Shown: positions 6,109-11,204 of the stretch, piece by piece
Position numbering within the stretch: the first letter of the stretch is position 1
Layout: each line of letters opens with the position of its first letter
DNA from: Anaerolineales bacterium
GTDB lineage: Bacteria; Chloroflexota; Anaerolineae; Anaerolineales; Villigracilaceae
Direction: 5' to 3'
NCBI GenBank assembly: GCA_028689195.1
Contig: JAQTWR010000025.1
Coordinates: forward strand, 1 to 14,485
Length of the DNA stretch: 14,485 bases
The notes under the pieces: model-generated
What the model was told of the DNA's origin: nothing
The model's input: only the letters and a program-made list of their open reading frames with translations
Database searches by the model: none
Program-made: the position numbers and the translations under genes

Positions 6109-7104
6109 TTACTTTTCAGGAATTCTCCCCGCGCGCAGTTCTTTTTCGTACGTGACAAATTCGCTCGCCACAGCCATGCCCGCTCGCTGATATAAGCGCG
6201 TCGCCCCCGTCGGATTCGACGCGTCTACGCCCAGCCCGATGGTGGTCATACCGCGCCGATAGAATTCTGCAAACGAGTGGCGCAGCAGCGCGAGTCCCAG
6301 CCCGTTTTTTCTCCATGCGCGGCGGACTCCCAACGTGCCGACCCAGCCGATTCCCATGCGAAAGCGGTTCTGCGAGAAGCCCGCAATTTGATCCCCGTCC
6401 CATGCGATCATCCACAAAGTCGGGTCGAATTCGGGTCTGCCGAATTTTCGGTGTTCCCAGGTTTCAAAGGGAACGTCATGGCTGCCCCAATGATCGCGGA
6501 AGGCTTCGTTATCCGCCTGCCAAACTGCGCGGACATGTTCCTCGCGGACAAAGGGGCGCAACTCGATTCCGGCGGGGAAGAGCGGCGCGGGCTGCGCTTC
6601 ATCCAATTTGATTTCCATGCGCCAGTGATAGCGGATTGGCGCGTACCCTTCGTTTTTATGCAGGTCATGTCCCGCTTTGTCTTTGTTGTCTATCGAACTG
6701 CGGATGAAAACGCGCAAATCAGATTCCGCCAACGTCATATCTTCCCGCGCGCGCGCTTCGACGCTTCGCAGCAGCGATGTGCCGACGCCCAGATTTTTGA
6801 AGTCGGGGTGGATGTATCCGTCGGCGCGCAAGTCGTAATGATCTTTTGTGTTGAAAAATTCTTCGTAGCCAATGACGCGCCCGTCCCGCGTTTCGACGAT
6901 AAAAGCGTCGCGCTCCACGTTGAAGCCTTCGCTTTCCCATTCGTTCTTTAATTCAGCGGGCGTGATCGCCACCGTCGTATCGCCGTCGGCTTCGCAAACG
7001 TCGTAGACGAGTTTTGCGACCGCGTTCAAATCGTCCCAGCGGGCGGCGCGCAAAGTCAACGCTGAATCAAGATGCGTTTCATTTGACGAAAATAGATTTG
7101 TCAT
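6109..7104 (-). CDS. Double-domain GNAT acetyltransferase (array member 5)
   Basis: This protein of 331 residues contains two GNAT folds in tandem (about 16-165 and 180-325), an arrangement also seen in mycothiol-synthase-like proteins. GNATs transfer an acetyl group from acetyl-CoA to an amine. The acetyl-CoA loop of the second domain is canonical, RKNGLG (265-270), followed by LALLRHSF and the late GNAT signature DASNPTGATRLYQRAGM (294-310). The first domain has KNLGVG (103-108), close to the consensus. It is about 60 percent identical by eye to the array's first gene (8893-9873) and collinear with it along its length. AAGGA precedes the ATG, 38 bases after the previous gene, with a hairpin repeat in the gap. 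Substrate unknown; drug, peptide or small-amine targets are all possible. Confidence 0.9.
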   Translation of the reverse strand: MTNLFSSNETHLDSALTLRAARWDDLNAVAKLVYDVCEADGDTTVAITPAELKNEWESEGFNVERDAFIVETRDGRVIGYEEFFNTKDHYDLRADGYIHPDFKNLGVGTSLLRSVEARAREDMTLAESDLRVFIRSSIDNKDKAGHDLHKNEGYAPIRYHWRMEIKLDEAQPAPLFPAGIELRPFVREEHVRAVWQADNEAFRDHWGSHDVPFETWEHRKFGRPEFDPTLWMIAWDGDQIAGFSQNRFRMGIGWVGTLGVRRAWRKNGLGLALLRHSFAEFYRRGMTTIGLGVDASNPTGATRLYQRAGMAVASEFVTYEKELRAGRIPEK

Positions 7105-7119
7105 TTTTATAATCCTTAA

Positions 7120-7148
7120 CCCTGACAGGTTTGAAAAACCCGTCAGGG
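7120..7148 (-). repeat. Palindromic hairpin repeat overlapping a stop codon
   Basis: CCCTGACAGGTTT (7120-7132) is followed by a three-base loop and AAACCCGTCAGGG (7136-7148), a 13-bp stem. The single mismatch is A/C on the plus strand but a G-U wobble in minus-strand RNA, so the fold favours the minus transcript. It contains the TGA stop and last codon of the upstream acetyltransferase gene and ends 16 bases before the next ATG. It lacks a U-tract, so RNA processing or stability is likelier than termination. Confidence 0.75.
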
Positions 7149-7700
7149 CTCATTTGAGTACCATTCCTCGCGCAGGATTCCCATGGTGAGGATGTCCCAG
7201 CGTTTGCCGTCGTGCAGCAGCGCGCCGCGCGTCTGACCTTCATGGCGGAAGCCCGCTTTTTCATACGAGCGAATCGCGCGCGGATTGTATTCAAACACGC
7301 CGAGCGTTACGCGGTTCAAGTTGATTTCGGTAAACGCGAAGCGCAGCGCGAGTTTCATCGCGTCTGTGCCGTAGCCTTTGCCCCAATCGCTGCGATTCCC
7401 CAGCCCAATGCCCACGAAGGCGTCGCGCCCGCTCCAGTTGTTGATGACGTCCAGCCCAATATCGCCCAGCAGGCGGTCGTCTTCCAATGCGCGGATGGCG
7501 AAGAGATGATGGGCGGGCGTCGCCTCTTCGGTTATTTTCTTGAAGAACTCGATGCCCGACTTGGCGGAATGTAAACGCGCCAAAGGAGATTGCAGGCGGT
7601 CTAATTCCGAATCGCGATTCCAAGTTGTGTATGCCTTGCCGAGTTCTTCGGGATCGAACGCCGCGAGCCTGACAAGGTTGCCTGTGAATATGTCTTTCAT
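7143..7700 (-). CDS. RimJ/RimL-type GNAT acetyltransferase (array member 4)
   Basis: This is a single-domain acetyltransferase of 185 residues in the RimJ/RimL (Acetyltransf_3) group. The acetyl-CoA loop is WGKGYGTDA (106-114), followed by the family-typical NLNRVTLGVFEYNPRAIRSYEKAGF pattern (127-151) and a C-terminal DILTMGILREEW (169-180). RimJ/RimL homologues acetylate N-termini of ribosomal proteins; many relatives modify other amines or antibiotics. The start at 7700 gives the same MKDI start as the preceding paralogue and overlaps that gene's stop as ATGA, showing translational coupling. The open frame back to 7748 is upstream noise. Its last codon and stop lie inside a palindromic repeat. 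Confidence 0.9.
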   Translation of the reverse strand: MKDIFTGNLVRLAAFDPEELGKAYTTWNRDSELDRLQSPLARLHSAKSGIEFFKKITEEATPAHHLFAIRALEDDRLLGDIGLDVINNWSGRDAFVGIGLGNRSDWGKGYGTDAMKLALRFAFTEINLNRVTLGVFEYNPRAIRSYEKAGFRHEGQTRGALLHDGKRWDILTMGILREEWYSNEP

Positions 7701-8257
7701 ACAGCCTCTCGCCGCGCCAGCCACTCTTCGCGCAGAATGCCCATCCACAAACCGTCGTAGCGGACTCCGTCGCGCAATCCGTCGCCGCGCGTTCTTCCCT
7801 CCAGTTGAAATCCCGCTTTTTGATATGACTTGAAAGCGCGCTCGTTATATGCGTGCAGCCCAAGCGAAATGCGGCGCAGGTTCAGTTCAAGGAATCCATA
7901 TTGCGCGACGAGTTTCACCGCGTCTGTGCCGTACCCGCGACTCCAATAATCGCGGTCGGCGATGAGGATATAGAACCACGCGTCGTCGTGCGTAAAATTG
8001 GGGACGAGTCCCGTGATGCCGATGTATTTATTTTCCGCGAGCGTATAAATCGAAAAGCGATAAGCGCGCGGCGGGTCTTTTGCATATTCTTTTTCGTAAA
8101 ACTCCTTCAATCTTTTCTCCGACCATAACTGCGCCGGACCCGTATCTGCGAGGCGATGCATTTCCGTATCGCGGTCCCAATTGACGAAGGCTTTTGCCAT
8201 TACTTCAGGAGATGCGTTGGATAAGCGGACGAGCTCTCCGCAATAGATGTCTTTCAT
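7697..8257 (-). CDS. RimJ/RimL-type GNAT acetyltransferase (array member 3)
   Basis: This is a 186-residue acetyltransferase, the closest relative of its downstream neighbour. Both begin MKDI-x2-G-x-LVRL, share W-x-RD at 27-30 and end in MGILREEW. The acetyl-CoA loop is WSRGYGTDA (105-113), followed by LNLRRISLGLHAYNERAFKSYQKAGF-type sequence (125-150) and RDGVRYDGLWMG. It starts 4 bases after the previous stop (TAG-CGCG-ATG) with GAGGG just upstream. Its TGA overlaps the next ATG. The acceptor-side residues differ from the neighbour's (for example PNFTHDDAWFY near 86-96), suggesting a different substrate. Confidence 0.9.
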   Translation of the reverse strand: MKDIYCGELVRLSNASPEVMAKAFVNWDRDTEMHRLADTGPAQLWSEKRLKEFYEKEYAKDPPRAYRFSIYTLAENKYIGITGLVPNFTHDDAWFYILIADRDYWSRGYGTDAVKLVAQYGFLELNLRRISLGLHAYNERAFKSYQKAGFQLEGRTRGDGLRDGVRYDGLWMGILREEWLARREAV

Positions 8258-8261
8258 CGCG

Positions 8262-8846
8262 CTACCCTCGCCCTTGATTTTGATCCTGCCATTCGGAATT
8301 AAGCAACCCGAAAGCGATGATGTCCCAGAATTCTCCGTCGCGGTTCACGGCTTTGCGCCTGCGAACCTCTTCCACAAAACCGAACTTTTGAAAAAGTCGG
8401 ATTGCGCCTTCGTTATAAGCGGGGACGACCGCCGTGACGCGGTACAAATTCAATTCGCCAAATGCGTAGCGCAGCAGCATATTCAACGCCTGCGAGCCGA
8501 ATCCTTTGCGGCGGTTTTCTTCCGCGCCGATTCCAAGCCGGATATAGCCGTTGCCGTTCGTCCAATCAATCCATTCCACAACCGCCTTGCCGATGAGCCG
8601 GTCGTCTTCGCGCGCGCGGATGGTGAAATAGAAGATATTCTTTTCTTCGTCCATTTCTTTTTCGACGGCTTCGTATTGTTTCTTGACCATCGCGGGCGAA
8701 AGCGGGCGCGCGGGTTTGAGTTCCATCAGGCGCATGAATTCCGCGTCATGCGTCCATTTGGATTCGATTTCGGGATGCGCTTCGTGGTCAATGGGACCGA
8801 AGCGAATATCCTGCGATTCAAATAGTTGAGTTTGTATAGATAACAT
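8262..8846 (-). CDS. RimJ/RimL-type GNAT acetyltransferase (array member 2)
   Basis: This is a 194-residue single-domain acetyltransferase. The acetyl-CoA loop is RRKGFG (112-117), followed by LNLYRVTAVVPAYNEGAIRLFQKFGF-type sequence (132-157) and NRDGEFWDIIAFGLL (168-182). It is related to but more distant from the two MKDI genes. I place the start at 8846 behind GGAGAATATCATC; the longer open frame to 8921 only reads back through the upstream hairpin and the end of the preceding gene. The 28 bases covering its ribosome site and ATG are identical to those of the array's first gene, evidence that the leader was duplicated. Confidence 0.88.
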   Translation of the reverse strand: MLSIQTQLFESQDIRFGPIDHEAHPEIESKWTHDAEFMRLMELKPARPLSPAMVKKQYEAVEKEMDEEKNIFYFTIRAREDDRLIGKAVVEWIDWTNGNGYIRLGIGAEENRRKGFGSQALNMLLRYAFGELNLYRVTAVVPAYNEGAIRLFQKFGFVEEVRRRKAVNRDGEFWDIIAFGLLNSEWQDQNQGRG

Positions 8847-8892
8847 GATGATATTCTCCAAAAACAAAAAAACATAACGCGACTTTCGCCGC
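8844..8892 (-). repeat. Copy 2 of hairpin/U-tract/RBS cassette
   Basis: Directly after the TAA of the preceding gene, minus strand GCGGC-GAAA-GTCGC forms a small hairpin (8892-8879). It is followed by T7-G-T5-GGAGAATATCATC-ATG. The last 28 bases (8871-8844) are identical to 9898-9871 before the array's first gene, where a longer hairpin also begins AAGCGGC and closes GTCGC. This is a duplicated control cassette, with a shortened hairpin here. Confidence 0.82.
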
Positions 8893-9873
8893 TTATAGAC
8901 CCGCGCGAAGTTCCTTCTCAAACGTGACGAATTCGCTCACGGTGTTCATGCCAGCCTTTTGATAGAGCCGCGTGGCGCCTGTAACGTTAGACGCATCTAC
9001 GGCAAGTCCAATGGCGGTTGTCCCGCGCTTGTAAAATTCGCCGAAGGAATGGCGGAGCAGGGCAAGTCCCAGCCCTTTGGCGCGCCATGCCGGGCGGACT
9101 CCCAAAATATGAATCCAGCCGATGTCCATCCGATATTGATTGATGGAAAATCCCGCCGCCTCCGCGCCGTCCCAGATCACAACCCAGAGCGCGGGGTCAT
9201 ATTCGGGGTCTTCAAAAGTGAGATAGGCGAACTCTTCAAAGGTCAGCTGGTGGCTGCCCCAATTATTCTGAAAGGACTCGTTCCGCGCCTGCCATACAGC
9301 CGTTACATGCTCGTCCTTTACGAAGGGACGTATTTCAAACCCCGACGGGAGTATTGGCGCAGGCGGCGCGGCGTCGAGATCAATTCCCATGCGCCATTGA
9401 TAGCGAATGGGCGTATAACCTTCGCGCGCGAGTATGGCTTCGCTCGCTTCGTCTTTGTGGTCTGTGATGCGGATAAACGCGCGTAAGTCGGCTGCCGAAA
9501 GTTGAATATGCTCGCGGGCGCGGATTTCCATGGCGCGCAATAACGCTGCGCGAACGCCAAGCCCGCTGAATTTCGGATGGACGTATACGTCGCCGCTGAG
9601 GTCGCAATGATTTTTTACGTTGAACAACGCCGCATAACCAGCCATGCGCCCGTCGCTGGTTTCAACAATGAAGGCGTCCTGCTCTGGATTGAAACCTTCG
9701 TATTTCCATTCATTTTCCAAATCATCCGGCGTATATGCAACGCTGGTATCGCCTTTCGCTTCGCAGACGTTGTAAATGAGTTGCGTTGCGGCGTTTAGAT
9801 CGTTCCAATGGACGGCGCGTAAAGTCAGCGCAGCGTCCAGATAAATTCCATTTGATGCAGGTTGTTTGGTCAT
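8893..9873 (-). CDS. Double-domain GNAT acetyltransferase (array member 1)
   Basis: This 326-residue tandem GNAT protein is a paralogue of the array's last gene, with one-residue gaps only. The second domain (about 178-322) has an intact acetyl-CoA loop RAKGLG (264-269) and the DASNVTGATRLYQKAGM signature (293-309). In the first domain (about 16-163) the loop reads SGLGVR (103-108): the leading Q/R and the final G/A are both replaced, so this half may no longer bind acetyl-CoA and may be structural or substrate-binding. The start at 9873 follows GGAG at 9 bases. The longer frame to 9936 runs through a terminator-like hairpin. It is the first structural gene after the leader-peptide region, so it should be the first gene controlled by the attenuator. 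Confidence 0.9.
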   Translation of the reverse strand: MTKQPASNGIYLDAALTLRAVHWNDLNAATQLIYNVCEAKGDTSVAYTPDDLENEWKYEGFNPEQDAFIVETSDGRMAGYAALFNVKNHCDLSGDVYVHPKFSGLGVRAALLRAMEIRAREHIQLSAADLRAFIRITDHKDEASEAILAREGYTPIRYQWRMGIDLDAAPPAPILPSGFEIRPFVKDEHVTAVWQARNESFQNNWGSHQLTFEEFAYLTFEDPEYDPALWVVIWDGAEAAGFSINQYRMDIGWIHILGVRPAWRAKGLGLALLRHSFGEFYKRGTTAIGLAVDASNVTGATRLYQKAGMNTVSEFVTFEKELRAGL

Positions 9874-9898
9874 GATGATATTCTCCAAAAACAAAAAA
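9871..9898 (-). repeat. Copy 1 of the 28-base RBS/start cassette
   Basis: On the minus strand the block runs T6-G-T5-GGAGAATATCATC-ATG and is a perfect direct repeat of 8871-8844. It supplies the ribosome site and ATG of the first acetyltransferase gene and doubles as the U-tract of the hairpin just upstream. Confidence 0.85.
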
Positions 9899-9926
9899 GC
9901 GACGATGGGGCGAACCCATAGCCGCT
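9898..9926 (-). terminator. Second leader hairpin (B), terminator-like
   Basis: On the minus strand AGCGGC pairs with GTCGCT (one wobble) and, after one mismatch, ATGGG pairs with CCCAT around TTCGC. TTTTTTGTTTTT follows directly, then the Shine-Dalgarno. Its 5' arm resembles that of hairpin A (CGGCTAxGGGTT), so the two can exchange partners. It may stop transcription or occlude the ribosome site. Confidence 0.65.
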
Positions 9927-9941
9927 TAATAGGCAATAAAA

Positions 9942-9977
9942 AACGGCTACAGGTCGCAAGCGCAACCCGTAGCCGTT
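9942..9977 (-). terminator. First leader hairpin (A), intrinsic terminator/attenuator
   Basis: On the minus strand AACGGCTAC pairs perfectly with GTAGCCGTT. The inner arms GGTTGC and GCGACC extend the stem to about 16 bp, counting wobbles, around GCTT. TTTTTT follows. It stands after the leader ORF stop codon and before the first acetyltransferase gene, as an attenuator should. Confidence 0.8.
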
Positions 9978-10001
9978 AGGCGCGAAAATGAAAACCTAAC
10001 G
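9974..10001 (-). promoter_or_regulatory. Candidate antiterminator stem
   Basis: CGTTAGG (minus 10001-9995), which contains the leader ORF's last codon and stop, is perfectly complementary to CCTAACG (9980-9974) across a 14-base loop. The second arm uses AACG of terminator A's 5' arm, so this 7-bp stem and terminator A cannot both form. A ribosome at the leader stop would cover the first arm. Confidence 0.5.
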
Positions 10002-10079
10002 TTGAACGGGCGCACTGCAAGAATCAAAACCAGCTTGGCTGGCGATATCAAAGACAGAAACACTCTTGTTCATTATCAT
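9996..10079 (-). CDS. Leader peptide upstream of the acetyltransferase array (27 codons)
   Basis: This short open frame has a consensus Shine-Dalgarno, AAAGGAGG (minus 10097-10090), 10 bases before its ATG; a second in-frame ATG lies two codons later. The peptide begins MIMNKSVSVF and ends SAPVQR, with five serines and one cysteine but no run of a single amino acid. It has no membrane segment or known domain. Its stop codon lies in one arm of the candidate antiterminator stem, and terminator A follows 18 bases later. It is more likely a translated sensor for attenuation than a functional peptide. It is too short for ordinary gene calling; support comes from the ribosome site and position. Confidence 0.6.
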   Translation of the reverse strand: MIMNKSVSVFDIASQAGFDSCSAPVQR

Positions 10080-10128
10080 TGGGCGTGCGCCTCCTTTCGT
10101 AAGATTTGCTTTGTTTCAAGCGAGGGCG

Positions 10129-10158
10129 AGTTTATCACGCGAATCAAATCCGCGTCAA
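10129..10158 (-). promoter_or_regulatory. Promoter of the leader peptide/acetyltransferase block
   Basis: The minus strand has TTGACG (10158-10153), an 18-base spacer and TAAACT (10134-10129) preceded by TGA, an extended -10. The predicted start is near 10122, about 43 bases before the leader ORF. Confidence 0.65.
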
Positions 10159-10187: not shown

Positions 10188-11204
10188 TTATGGGTTTGAG
10201 GTCAATATCCTGCCAGCCAGCAGCGCGTCCAAAGTTTCTTGCGCGAGGCGGAGTTTTCCGGGGGAGAGAATCGTCGGGTCTACATCCGCAATTCCAAGCG
10301 GAGATTGAACTGTGATTCCGCCCTGCCCCGCGGCGAGCGAAGTCCACGCGCTTTGAATCGCTTTGACCGTATCGGGGCGAATGGTCATCACCCAGCCGCC
10401 GGGTCGCGGTTCTGGCATCGAAGTCCCGATTAACAGCACGCCTTGCGTTCCCACATACGATAGAAAGTCGGGGTTCGCCAGCGTGGGATAAATATACAAC
10501 GCCTCCACCTTTCGATCATTAATCAGCACATTGGCATAACCGCCGTAACGCTCCGGCTTTTCATCGGCGGGGATTTCAATGGGCTGCGGGTACGCAAGGT
10601 CGCTGTAGTAGAAGGTGCGGCACAATCCGCAATAATAATTTTTTCCGTTATTGAAAGCGTAGAAAGCGCGCTGCGCGTCGGGGTTATCTTTGGGAAGTAC
10701 GATGCCGATGTGATATTCCTCGATAAGCATCGAAAGCACATATCCCGCAAGGAAGGCGGGCAGTTCCACTTGAGTATCGCCTGCCAGCACGCTGACGTTT
10801 CCGCCCGCCGCGATATTGGGAATATTCACCGTAAGGAATTGCACATTCGGCGCGGTGGATGCGTACGTTGCCACGCCCGGGTCGGGCGGCAGCACGATCA
10901 CCACCTTTAACGTCGGGTCGGTCAAATCCATCGCGGTCAGCGCGTTGCGGACTTGGAAACGAAAGCCCGATCCCTGCGCGAGATCGTATACGGTTTTTTG
11001 ATACAAGTCAGACGAGGCTTTGTCCATGTCGGCGGGGATGACCAAAATCGCCAGCGGCGTGGATGGCGTTGGGATAATCGTCGGCGCGGGCAAGGGCGTA
11101 TGCGTCGGCACAATCGTCGGCGGCGCGATTTCGGTTGAACTTCCGCCGCAGGCGCTTAAGATTGCGACGATAAGAATTGTAAAAAGAAAATATTTTATAC
11201 GCAC
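10188..11204 (-). CDS. Lipoprotein, possibly BMP/PnrA-like solute-binding protein
   Basis: This 338-residue exported lipoprotein has a basic start, a hydrophobic core and a lipobox LSAC with C19 as the lipidated residue. A Thr/Pro-rich spacer follows (about 25-50, repeats of PTxxPTxTPLPAP type). The globular part contains VELPAFLAGYVLSMLIEEYHIGIVLP-like sequence (about 146-172), which resembles the FLAGYLAALMTKTGKVG region of BMP/PnrA nucleoside-binding lipoproteins. The position of the YYCGLC pair (C193, C196 approximately) is unusual and could bind metal or form a disulfide. Translation starts at GTG with GGAG 7 bases upstream. No ABC permease or ATPase genes are adjacent, so a transport role is uncertain. 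It is transcribed toward the acetyltransferase leader and divergently from the M23 gene. Confidence 0.6.
   Translation of the reverse strand: MRIKYFLFTILIVAILSACGGSSTEIAPPTIVPTHTPLPAPTIIPTPSTPLAILVIPADMDKASSDLYQKTVYDLAQGSGFRFQVRNALTAMDLTDPTLKVVIVLPPDPGVATYASTAPNVQFLTVNIPNIAAGGNVSVLAGDTQVELPAFLAGYVLSMLIEEYHIGIVLPKDNPDAQRAFYAFNNGKNYYCGLCRTFYYSDLAYPQPIEIPADEKPERYGGYANVLINDRKVEALYIYPTLANPDFLSYVGTQGVLLIGTSMPEPRPGGWVMTIRPDTVKAIQSAWTSLAAGQGGITVQSPLGIADVDPTILSPGKLRLAQETLDALLAGRILTSNP

Follow-up and report, generated by a model that had tools for sequence, protein, structure and literature searches.

The window analysed here, a stretch of 14,485 nucleotides (nt) covering positions 1 to 14,485 of contig JAQTWR010000025.1 (assembly GCA_028689195.1) from an Anaerolineales bacterium of the family Villigracilaceae (Chloroflexota; Anaerolineae), carries on its minus strand an array of five GNAT acetyltransferase genes preceded by a leader, which is the subject of this study. 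An initial annotation, made from the sequence alone, had described in this leader a promoter, a 27-codon open reading frame (ORF), two terminator-like hairpins (A and B) and a chain of alternative pairings, and had read the whole as a leader-peptide attenuator of the acetyltransferase array. All of these features, and a Shine-Dalgarno (SD) sequence before the ORF, are in place and conserved, and conservation and covariation strongly support the attenuator reading. What had been missed is the complementarity of the SD region (10091-10085) to the codons for Ser-Ala-Pro (SAP) at the end of the leader ORF, which belong to a peptide motif, RSAP, present in the window as the variant CSAP. The switch is larger than had been proposed, since pairing of the SD region to the SAP codons competes with pairing of the SAP codons to the 5' arm of A. 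The features of the leader are the following:

10129..10158, minus strand: sigma-70-type promoter (TTGACG at 10158-10153, an 18-nt gap, TAAACT at 10134-10129, TG before the -10)
10090..10097, minus strand: SD sequence AAAGGAGG of the leader ORF, from the sequence
10085..10091, minus strand: segment 1, GGCGCAC, complement of the SAP codons; anti-antiterminator strand that also hides the SD (1:2 duplex, partner-swap and shuffle tests)
9996..10079, minus strand: leader ORF, 27 codons, MIMNKSVSVFDIASQAGFDSCSAPVQR and stop TAG at 9998-9996 (ORF and frame counts)
10006..10016, minus strand: segment 2, AGTGCGCCCGT, codons S-A-P and the next; common to anti-antiterminator and antiterminator
9994..10001, minus strand: 5' strand of P0, the hairpin at the stop codon, CGTTAGGT; tip of the antiterminator (duplex energy)
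9974..9981, minus strand: 3' side of P0, GCCTAACG; 9977-9974 are shared with the base of A
9959..9970, minus strand: segment 3, made up of the loop of A and the upper portion of its 5' arm; antiterminator partner of segment 2
9942..9977, minus strand: intrinsic terminator A, 16 pairs, then T's at 9941-9938 (fold and covariation)
9944..9955, minus strand: 3' arm of A, pairable with the 5' arm of B at 9924-9913, hence antiterminator of B (energy and swap test)
9897..9927, minus strand: intrinsic terminator B, then T's (fold)

With 37 °C assumed for all energies, the duplex of segments 1 and 2 (1:2) comes to -17.1 kcal/mol in the window, and that of segments 2 and 3 (2:3), the main stem of the antiterminator, which joins 10016-10006 (S-A-P codons) to 9970-9959 (A's 5' arm and loop), to -16.7 kcal/mol. 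Hairpins A and B reach -28.3 and -16.7 kcal/mol, and the pairing between the 3' side of A and the 5' side of B, which the initial annotation had proposed, reaches -25.2 kcal/mol. The transcript 10122-9873, whose folding had been suggested as a check, gave z = -3.9, and 0 of 200 shuffled versions were as stable. Rfam 15 returned no match to the window, and at eight loci its gathering score was reached only by a neighbouring tRNA. Hairpins followed by T's do arise by chance (3 were found in this region, with 1.0 expected), and this favours an alternative in which the ORF is incidental and the two hairpins simply terminate transcription or mark processing sites. Against it stands the conservation of frame, codons and pairing over 203 copies described below, which an incidental ORF would not be expected to show and which makes this explanation practically negligible.

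To begin with the distribution, plain DNA similarity to 301 bases located the leader in 46 of 121 genomes (its own included), 41 of them of the same genus. The promoter, TTGAC ... TG[A/G]TA[A/G/C]ACT, is kept in all 30 of the DNA-similarity leaders that were read (own included), and the ORF end in 29 of them, as RSAP in 26 and as CSAP in three, including the window; the locus L026 has lost it. Stem sequences change among these relatives while the pairing persists, and this conservation excludes chance as the origin of the feature. A covariance model built on 28 sequences from the SAP codons to A (R1) matched 126 of 152 genomes of the family (E ≤ 0.05), and a wider model of 100 rows, one of which is a false match on the opposite strand (R2), matched 177 of 396 genomes of the class and 122 of 222 genera (E ≤ 0.01), with up to six matches per genome at that threshold (G048). 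Within a sample of the phylum, 39 of 400 genomes matched R2 at E ≤ 0.001, 36 of them in the class (own included) and three outside it; at the three outside loci (L380-L382) the terminator is present, and no RSAP-type ORF end was seen by eye. As mainly the stronger of the listed R1 and R2 matches were read, these tallies depend on the E-values, and E-values from such models are approximate. Both models contain the SAP columns, pairs in A and, close to the SAP codons, a minor stem of three pairs, without the 1:2 or 2:3 pairing. Finally, a pattern scan of GTDB contigs found at least 119 stretches; among the 80 listed, all are titled Chloroflexota except one Chthonomonas calidirosea, and the named records in this list are metagenome-assembled genomes.

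For the counts below, loci were removed if they duplicated the window (L002), were chance matches (L003) or had lost the ORF (L026). From the 20 loci L070-L089, five weak R1 matches in which no such ORF end was seen were excluded (L082, L085, L086, L088 and L089), and L038-L060 (except L044), L062, L063 and L066-L069 were excluded as repeat genomes or leaders already taken. The remaining 147 loci were reduced to 144 by dropping L084 (poor match to the SAP codons) and the duplicates L037 and L127, and to 143 leaders by the loss of L145, whose A was missed by the hairpin finder; L380-L389 enter no count. The finder set some boundaries of A too far upstream (e.g., L144 and L181), and in L126 and L177 the script put the start codon in the wrong place. 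A wider set comprises 60 further leaders.

The leader ORF looks translated, judging from its frame and codons. An SD and start codon in frame with the SAP codons are present in 137 of the 143 leaders, compared to two and one in the other frames, and in 55 of the 60 leaders of the wider set (other frames, three and zero). Of the 131 leaders with a GGAG measured, 122 have 12-15 nt from its first base to the start codon, and the ORF is 21-36 codons long in 142 of 144. Among 203 distinct copies, 149 have the exact RSAP and 177 have RSAP or a close variant, while the position of the stop relative to RSAP varies and the 5' arm of A starts a median of 20 nt past the stop. Arginine is present in 178 of the 203 copies and is encoded by 75 CGT, 53 CGG, 27 CGC, 19 CGA and three AGA codons; it is preceded by Ser (TCN or AGC) in 109 and by Cys in 38, giving the signature [S/C]-R-S-A-P. 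Since the wobble position of the arginine codon is free and AGA is also used, since the preceding serine codons vary, and since L332 retains RSAP with a TCT serine codon, the ORF end is under selection at the peptide level. The SAP codons are selected at the RNA level as well, given that alanine is nearly always GCG (195 of 203) and the serine of the motif mostly AGT (173 of 203). Leader ORFs before ABC-F-type genes (L161, L177, L188 and L375) look leaderless: no SD was seen, and a -10-like box stands near the start codon. L161 and L188, for example, still end in GPCRIAPVC and PPRSAPVCR, respectively, followed by the stop, so that the peptide end is kept where pairing to an SD is not available.

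We then focused on the pairings that would make up the switch. Across 137 leaders, 1:2 has a mean energy of -16.35 kcal/mol with its own partner, -14.63 kcal/mol with swapped partners and -7.8 kcal/mol after shuffling, and 0 of 2,000 swaps were as strong; the preference for the own partner also holds within cargo class. Compensatory changes are found in L149 (GACGCAC/GTGCGTC), L172 (GACGTATTT/AAATGCGTC) and L186 (GCGCTAC/GTAGCGC), as well as in L170 and L155, and in 133 of the 137 leaders of the first set 1:2 is stronger than in shuffled versions of the same leader by a margin above 3 kcal/mol. For 2:3 the corresponding means are -15.36, -13.78 and -9.4 kcal/mol (n = 143; 0 of 2,000 swaps). 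The region up to the loop of A folds into the 2:3 stem in 142 of 143 leaders, against 60.9 after shuffling and 59.4 when the spacer and the A side were shuffled; an inner hairpin around the stop codon joins this stem in 140 of 143. All 60 leaders of the wider set form it too, compared to 28.8 when shuffled. Terminator A (3:4) shows changes on both sides in 11 of 12 pairs over 100 aligned rows, and the covariation score of the whole counted structure is 0.374, against 0.187 when shuffled and at most 0.129 when slid. The pairings and the ORF, for whose conservation in homologous leaders the initial annotation had called, are thus both retained.

Terminator B lies within 70 nt in 78 of 88 GNAT-, 3 of 46 ABC-, 4 of 4 MFS- and 2 of 4 ABC-F-labelled leaders. 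The annotated pairing of A's 3' side with B's 5' side withstood the swap test in 78 leaders (-18.09 kcal/mol own versus -15.86 swapped; 0 of 2,000 swaps). The mirror pairing, A's 5' side with B's 3' side, also beats its swaps (0 of 2,000), as a likeness between A and B would produce, but it is weaker (-14.62 kcal/mol) and has no role in the model, which predicts the observed excess of the former over the latter.

These results also bear on the chain as first drawn, in which P0 alone would break A and the freed 3' arm of A would break B, leaving the SAP pairings irrelevant. Its parts exist: P0, CGTTAGG(T):(G)CCTAACG, forms at -9.4 kcal/mol and is the apex of the antiterminator, it takes the base of a completed A when a ribosome sits on the start codon, and A's 3' side favours its own B over swaps. 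On its own, P0 is weak; it overlaps A (-28.3 kcal/mol) by only four bases, and 13 of the 16 pairs of A are left in place. Moreover, the sequence of P0 drifts while the pairing of the SAP codons with the arm of A is kept across classes. P0 was rejected as the whole switch on the grounds of its energy and its short overlap, and we regard this minimal chain as very improbable. The apex hairpin reads GACC-GTTA-GGTC around the stop in the ABC branch and TTACACGNAGTGTAA in other genera.

The folds of the window were next computed with ribosome masks of assumed footprint width. With the RNA polymerase just past the loop of A, the best fold contains 2:3 and P0 if the ribosome is absent or on codon 1, 5 or 10, whereas a ribosome at RSA/P or at the stop removes both. 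This agrees with the direction given in the initial annotation, i.e., read-through upon an early stall and termination with a ribosome at the stop. An SD with start codon, an intrinsic terminator and a mutually exclusive antiterminator built from the ORF end, the sequence hallmarks of an attenuator, are all present. Taken together, it is probable that the element is a ribosome-mediated transcription attenuator, in which an early-stalled ribosome leads to read-through and a ribosome at RSAP or the stop to termination.

According to this model, the RNA polymerase and the leader ribosome would advance together. An unhindered ribosome would cover the SAP codons, possibly pausing at RSA/P or at the stop, while A is synthesized, so that A and B form and transcription terminates. 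If no ribosome is present, 1:2 would be expected to form with the same terminating effect, which is the weakest step. A ribosome held by an inhibitor at the start or early codons would instead cover or hinder segment 1 and leave segment 2 free; the 2:3 antiterminator could then form ahead of the synthesis of A's 3' arm, and this freed arm would capture the 5' arm of B, allowing transcription of the resistance genes. The signal would be slowed or stalled translation, with ribosome-targeting antibiotics as its likeliest source, and translation would control the choice in vivo. Because A forms in all states once complete, the choice would have to be kinetic, set by the position of the leader ribosome.

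Several observations weigh against this interpretation. L026, from the same genus (G022:C47), keeps the promoter and SD, but its leader ORF and terminator A are gone, and this naturally occurring deletion might give constitutive expression. The motif counts in R1 and R2 matches are partly ascertained, as the models include the SAP columns, although the motif is also kept in the 29 of 30 leaders collected by plain DNA similarity, which serve as a control. The leaders share ancestry, and the swap tests are not independent draws; in addition, shuffled controls form a 2:3-like stem in more than 40% of cases. Pairing 1:2 beats its shuffles by more than 3 kcal/mol in only 14 of 35 distant-family leaders and is weak or absent in the SD-less ABC-F copies, and for these reasons it is neither general nor essential. 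As to the folds, the mask widths are assumed, completed A forms in every ribosome state at equilibrium (with a ribosome at the start codon, P0 takes its base, leaving 13 of 16 pairs), and the no-ribosome fold just past the loop of A shows 2:3 instead of 1:2, so that an untranslated leader need not be off.

The same folds help to judge whether RSAP could be the ON signal. In erm-type leaders, conserved peptide stretches are the sites of drug stalling, and RSAP is the best-conserved segment of the peptide here; a drug-bound ribosome arrested at these codons might thus rearrange the downstream RNA. However, a ribosome on RSAP covers segment 2, the masked fold then lacks the antiterminator, and the 5' arm of A, at its median distance of 20 nt past the stop, lies beyond the assumed footprint. 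The masked fold speaks against a drug-arrested ribosome at RSAP turning expression on, and we consider this alternative unlikely. Scarcity of a charged tRNA might also slow the leader ribosome, as in an amino-acid starvation attenuator, and the general logic would respond in this way too if early codons were slow. Yet the upstream peptide is highly variable, with no common run of a single amino acid seen in the leaders displayed, and the cargo consists of acetyltransferases, transporters and ABC-F proteins and not of biosynthesis genes, which renders starvation sensing rather improbable.

The cargo of the 143 leaders comprises 88 GNAT, 46 ABC, four MFS, four ABC-F and one methyltransferase-domain gene. 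The three large groups were labelled from blastp clusters and the remainder from the longest ORF, with Pfam and NCBIfam applied to samples; five labels ("GNAT?") and that of L174, at a contig end, are guesses. The three ABC-F proteins scanned scored 436.5, 434.7 and 439.3 against an NCBIfam ribosomal-protection-like cutoff of 380, and the exporter at L111 is most similar to P-glycoprotein, with Sav1866 and MsbA lower in the list. Drug sensing, which the initial annotation had deemed conceivable, becomes more credible in view of the ABC exporters, MFS pumps and ABC-F proteins that follow other copies. As these kinds of cargo protect against or export ribosome drugs, a ribosome-targeting antibiotic would be the likeliest inducer. 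In distant families, the leader is also followed by genes for ABC-2 permeases and ATPases, for HAD hydrolases and, at one locus, for a RIO-domain protein. The HAD-type hydrolases are assigned by Pfam at L325 and by likeness at L322, L327 and L332; L344 precedes the RIO-domain kinase-like protein, which would be unexpected for a resistance cassette.

The attenuation logic itself is already known from vmlR and BmrB. The vmlR leader of Bacillus subtilis, which controls an ABC-F gene, likewise combines an anti-antiterminator, an antiterminator with a small apex hairpin, an intrinsic terminator and an upstream ORF (uORF), and antibiotic stalling blocks its anti-antiterminator (PMC9226507); ABC-F cargo also occurs here. 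Its uORF is a tripeptide inside SL-1 (PMC9226507), whereas here the ORF has 21-36 codons (142 of 144) and its conserved RSAP codons are the shared strand. Also unlike vmlR, most leaders of the first set (133 of 137) use the SD region of the ORF itself as the other anti-antiterminator strand, and a single element is shared by several gene families that are unrelated to one another. The vmlR-type overlap of anti-antiterminator and antiterminator is found in the first set and is not general in distant families. Like SL-2 of vmlR, the apex hairpin may in addition serve to pause RNA polymerase. BmrB, the leader of the bmrCD ABC exporter of B. subtilis, is similar in that translation of the leader peptide is needed, its loss lowering expression, and in that inhibitors raise read-through into the exporter (PMC4191407); it differs in its 53 codons and in the terminator inside the ORF, and the portion of the source available to us describes no RSAP signature or SD:ORF-end pairing (PMC4191407). 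The untranslated leader is reported to favour termination for bmrB (PMC4191407), and the scheme for vmlR has it do likewise (PMC9226507). The toiL uORF of topAI-yjhQ in Escherichia coli, too, senses several classes of ribosome-targeting antibiotics, with stalling at the start and at later codons, but acts through a ribosome-binding site and Rho-dependent termination and not through intrinsic terminators (PMC12121999). According to the same source, start codons are probably where every drug to which the uORFs of vmlR, cplR and vga(A) respond arrests the ribosome (PMC12121999); here, a start-codon stall would mask segment 1.

With regard to the peptide, the RAPP/RAGP arrest peptides (ApdA, ApdP, ApcA and SecM) likewise carry a motif of four residues, headed by Arg, towards the C-terminal end of a small regulatory ORF, and RSAP resembles the RAG/P of SecM in having Arg two residues before the P-site residue, with Pro last or to come (PMC12992588, PMC10951233). 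The invariant Arg of RAPP, RGPP, RAPG or RAGP is not found in the leaders, where Arg occurs in 178 of 203 copies, the second residue is mostly Ser and the third mostly Ala, and RSAP occurs 0 times in the text of PMC12992588. Membership in the RAPP family was rejected, given that 25 of 203 copies have another residue in place of Arg and that the residue pattern differs. While a SecM stall turns expression on (PMC12992588, PMC10951233), a stall at RSAP should favour the OFF state. It is tempting to speculate that RSAP is a new nascent-chain pausing signal of opposite sense to SecM, whose pause parks the ribosome on the antiterminator strand and enforces OFF until inhibitors prevent its arrival, and that one portable cassette coordinates acetyltransferase, ABC exporter, ABC-F and MFS genes as a translation-stress resistance regulon throughout the Anaerolineae; we put this forward as a tentative proposal. 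The intrinsic pause at RSAP that enforces OFF, taken by itself, is also conceivable without being favoured. A preference of chloramphenicol-like drugs for Ala in the next-to-last position offers a possible lead.

In the titles and abstract starts listed by searches of an open-access subset of the literature we found no description of this element or of such an Anaerolineae leader, which does not prove its absence from print; a portable element of this kind, spread through the class and marked by its peptide signature, appears to be undescribed. If correct, our model would define a class-wide sensor of antibiotics or translation stress in the Anaerolineae. The leader would also predict which uncharacterised GNAT, HAD and transporter genes join the translation-stress response, since the element precedes several unrelated gene families with up to six matches per genome. 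RSAP would furthermore be a candidate arrest motif, amenable to standard cell-free assays.

The acetyltransferase array behind the leader is composed of the following genes:

8893..9873, minus strand: gene 1, two-domain GNAT, first behind the leader
8262..8846, minus strand: gene 2, PF13302-type GNAT; relatives carry similar GNATs directly behind the leader
7697..8257, minus strand: gene 3, PF13302-type GNAT
7143..7700, minus strand: gene 4, PF13302-type GNAT
6109..7104, minus strand: gene 5, two-domain GNAT

None of the five reached an NCBIfam cutoff. In relatives, the leader mostly precedes a gene-2-type GNAT and not gene 1, and because this holds for 72 of 143 leaders, gene 1 may have been inserted between the leader and gene 2. 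An untranslated stretch of 28 nt is present in identical copies before gene 2 (8844-8871) and gene 1 (9871-9898). A possible internal terminator, consisting of a short GC hairpin (GCGGC GAAA GTCGC) and a T-run after it, immediately precedes gene 2 at 8892-8865. Upstream of the leader lies a 338-amino-acid lipoprotein-like ORF (10188-11204, minus strand), for which Pfam gave no match at E ≤ 0.001, and downstream of the array an HAD hydrolase is encoded at about 5595-4954, minus strand. The genome of the window contains a second copy of the leader (C232:2172-2266, L334), located before an ABC-exporter-like gene.

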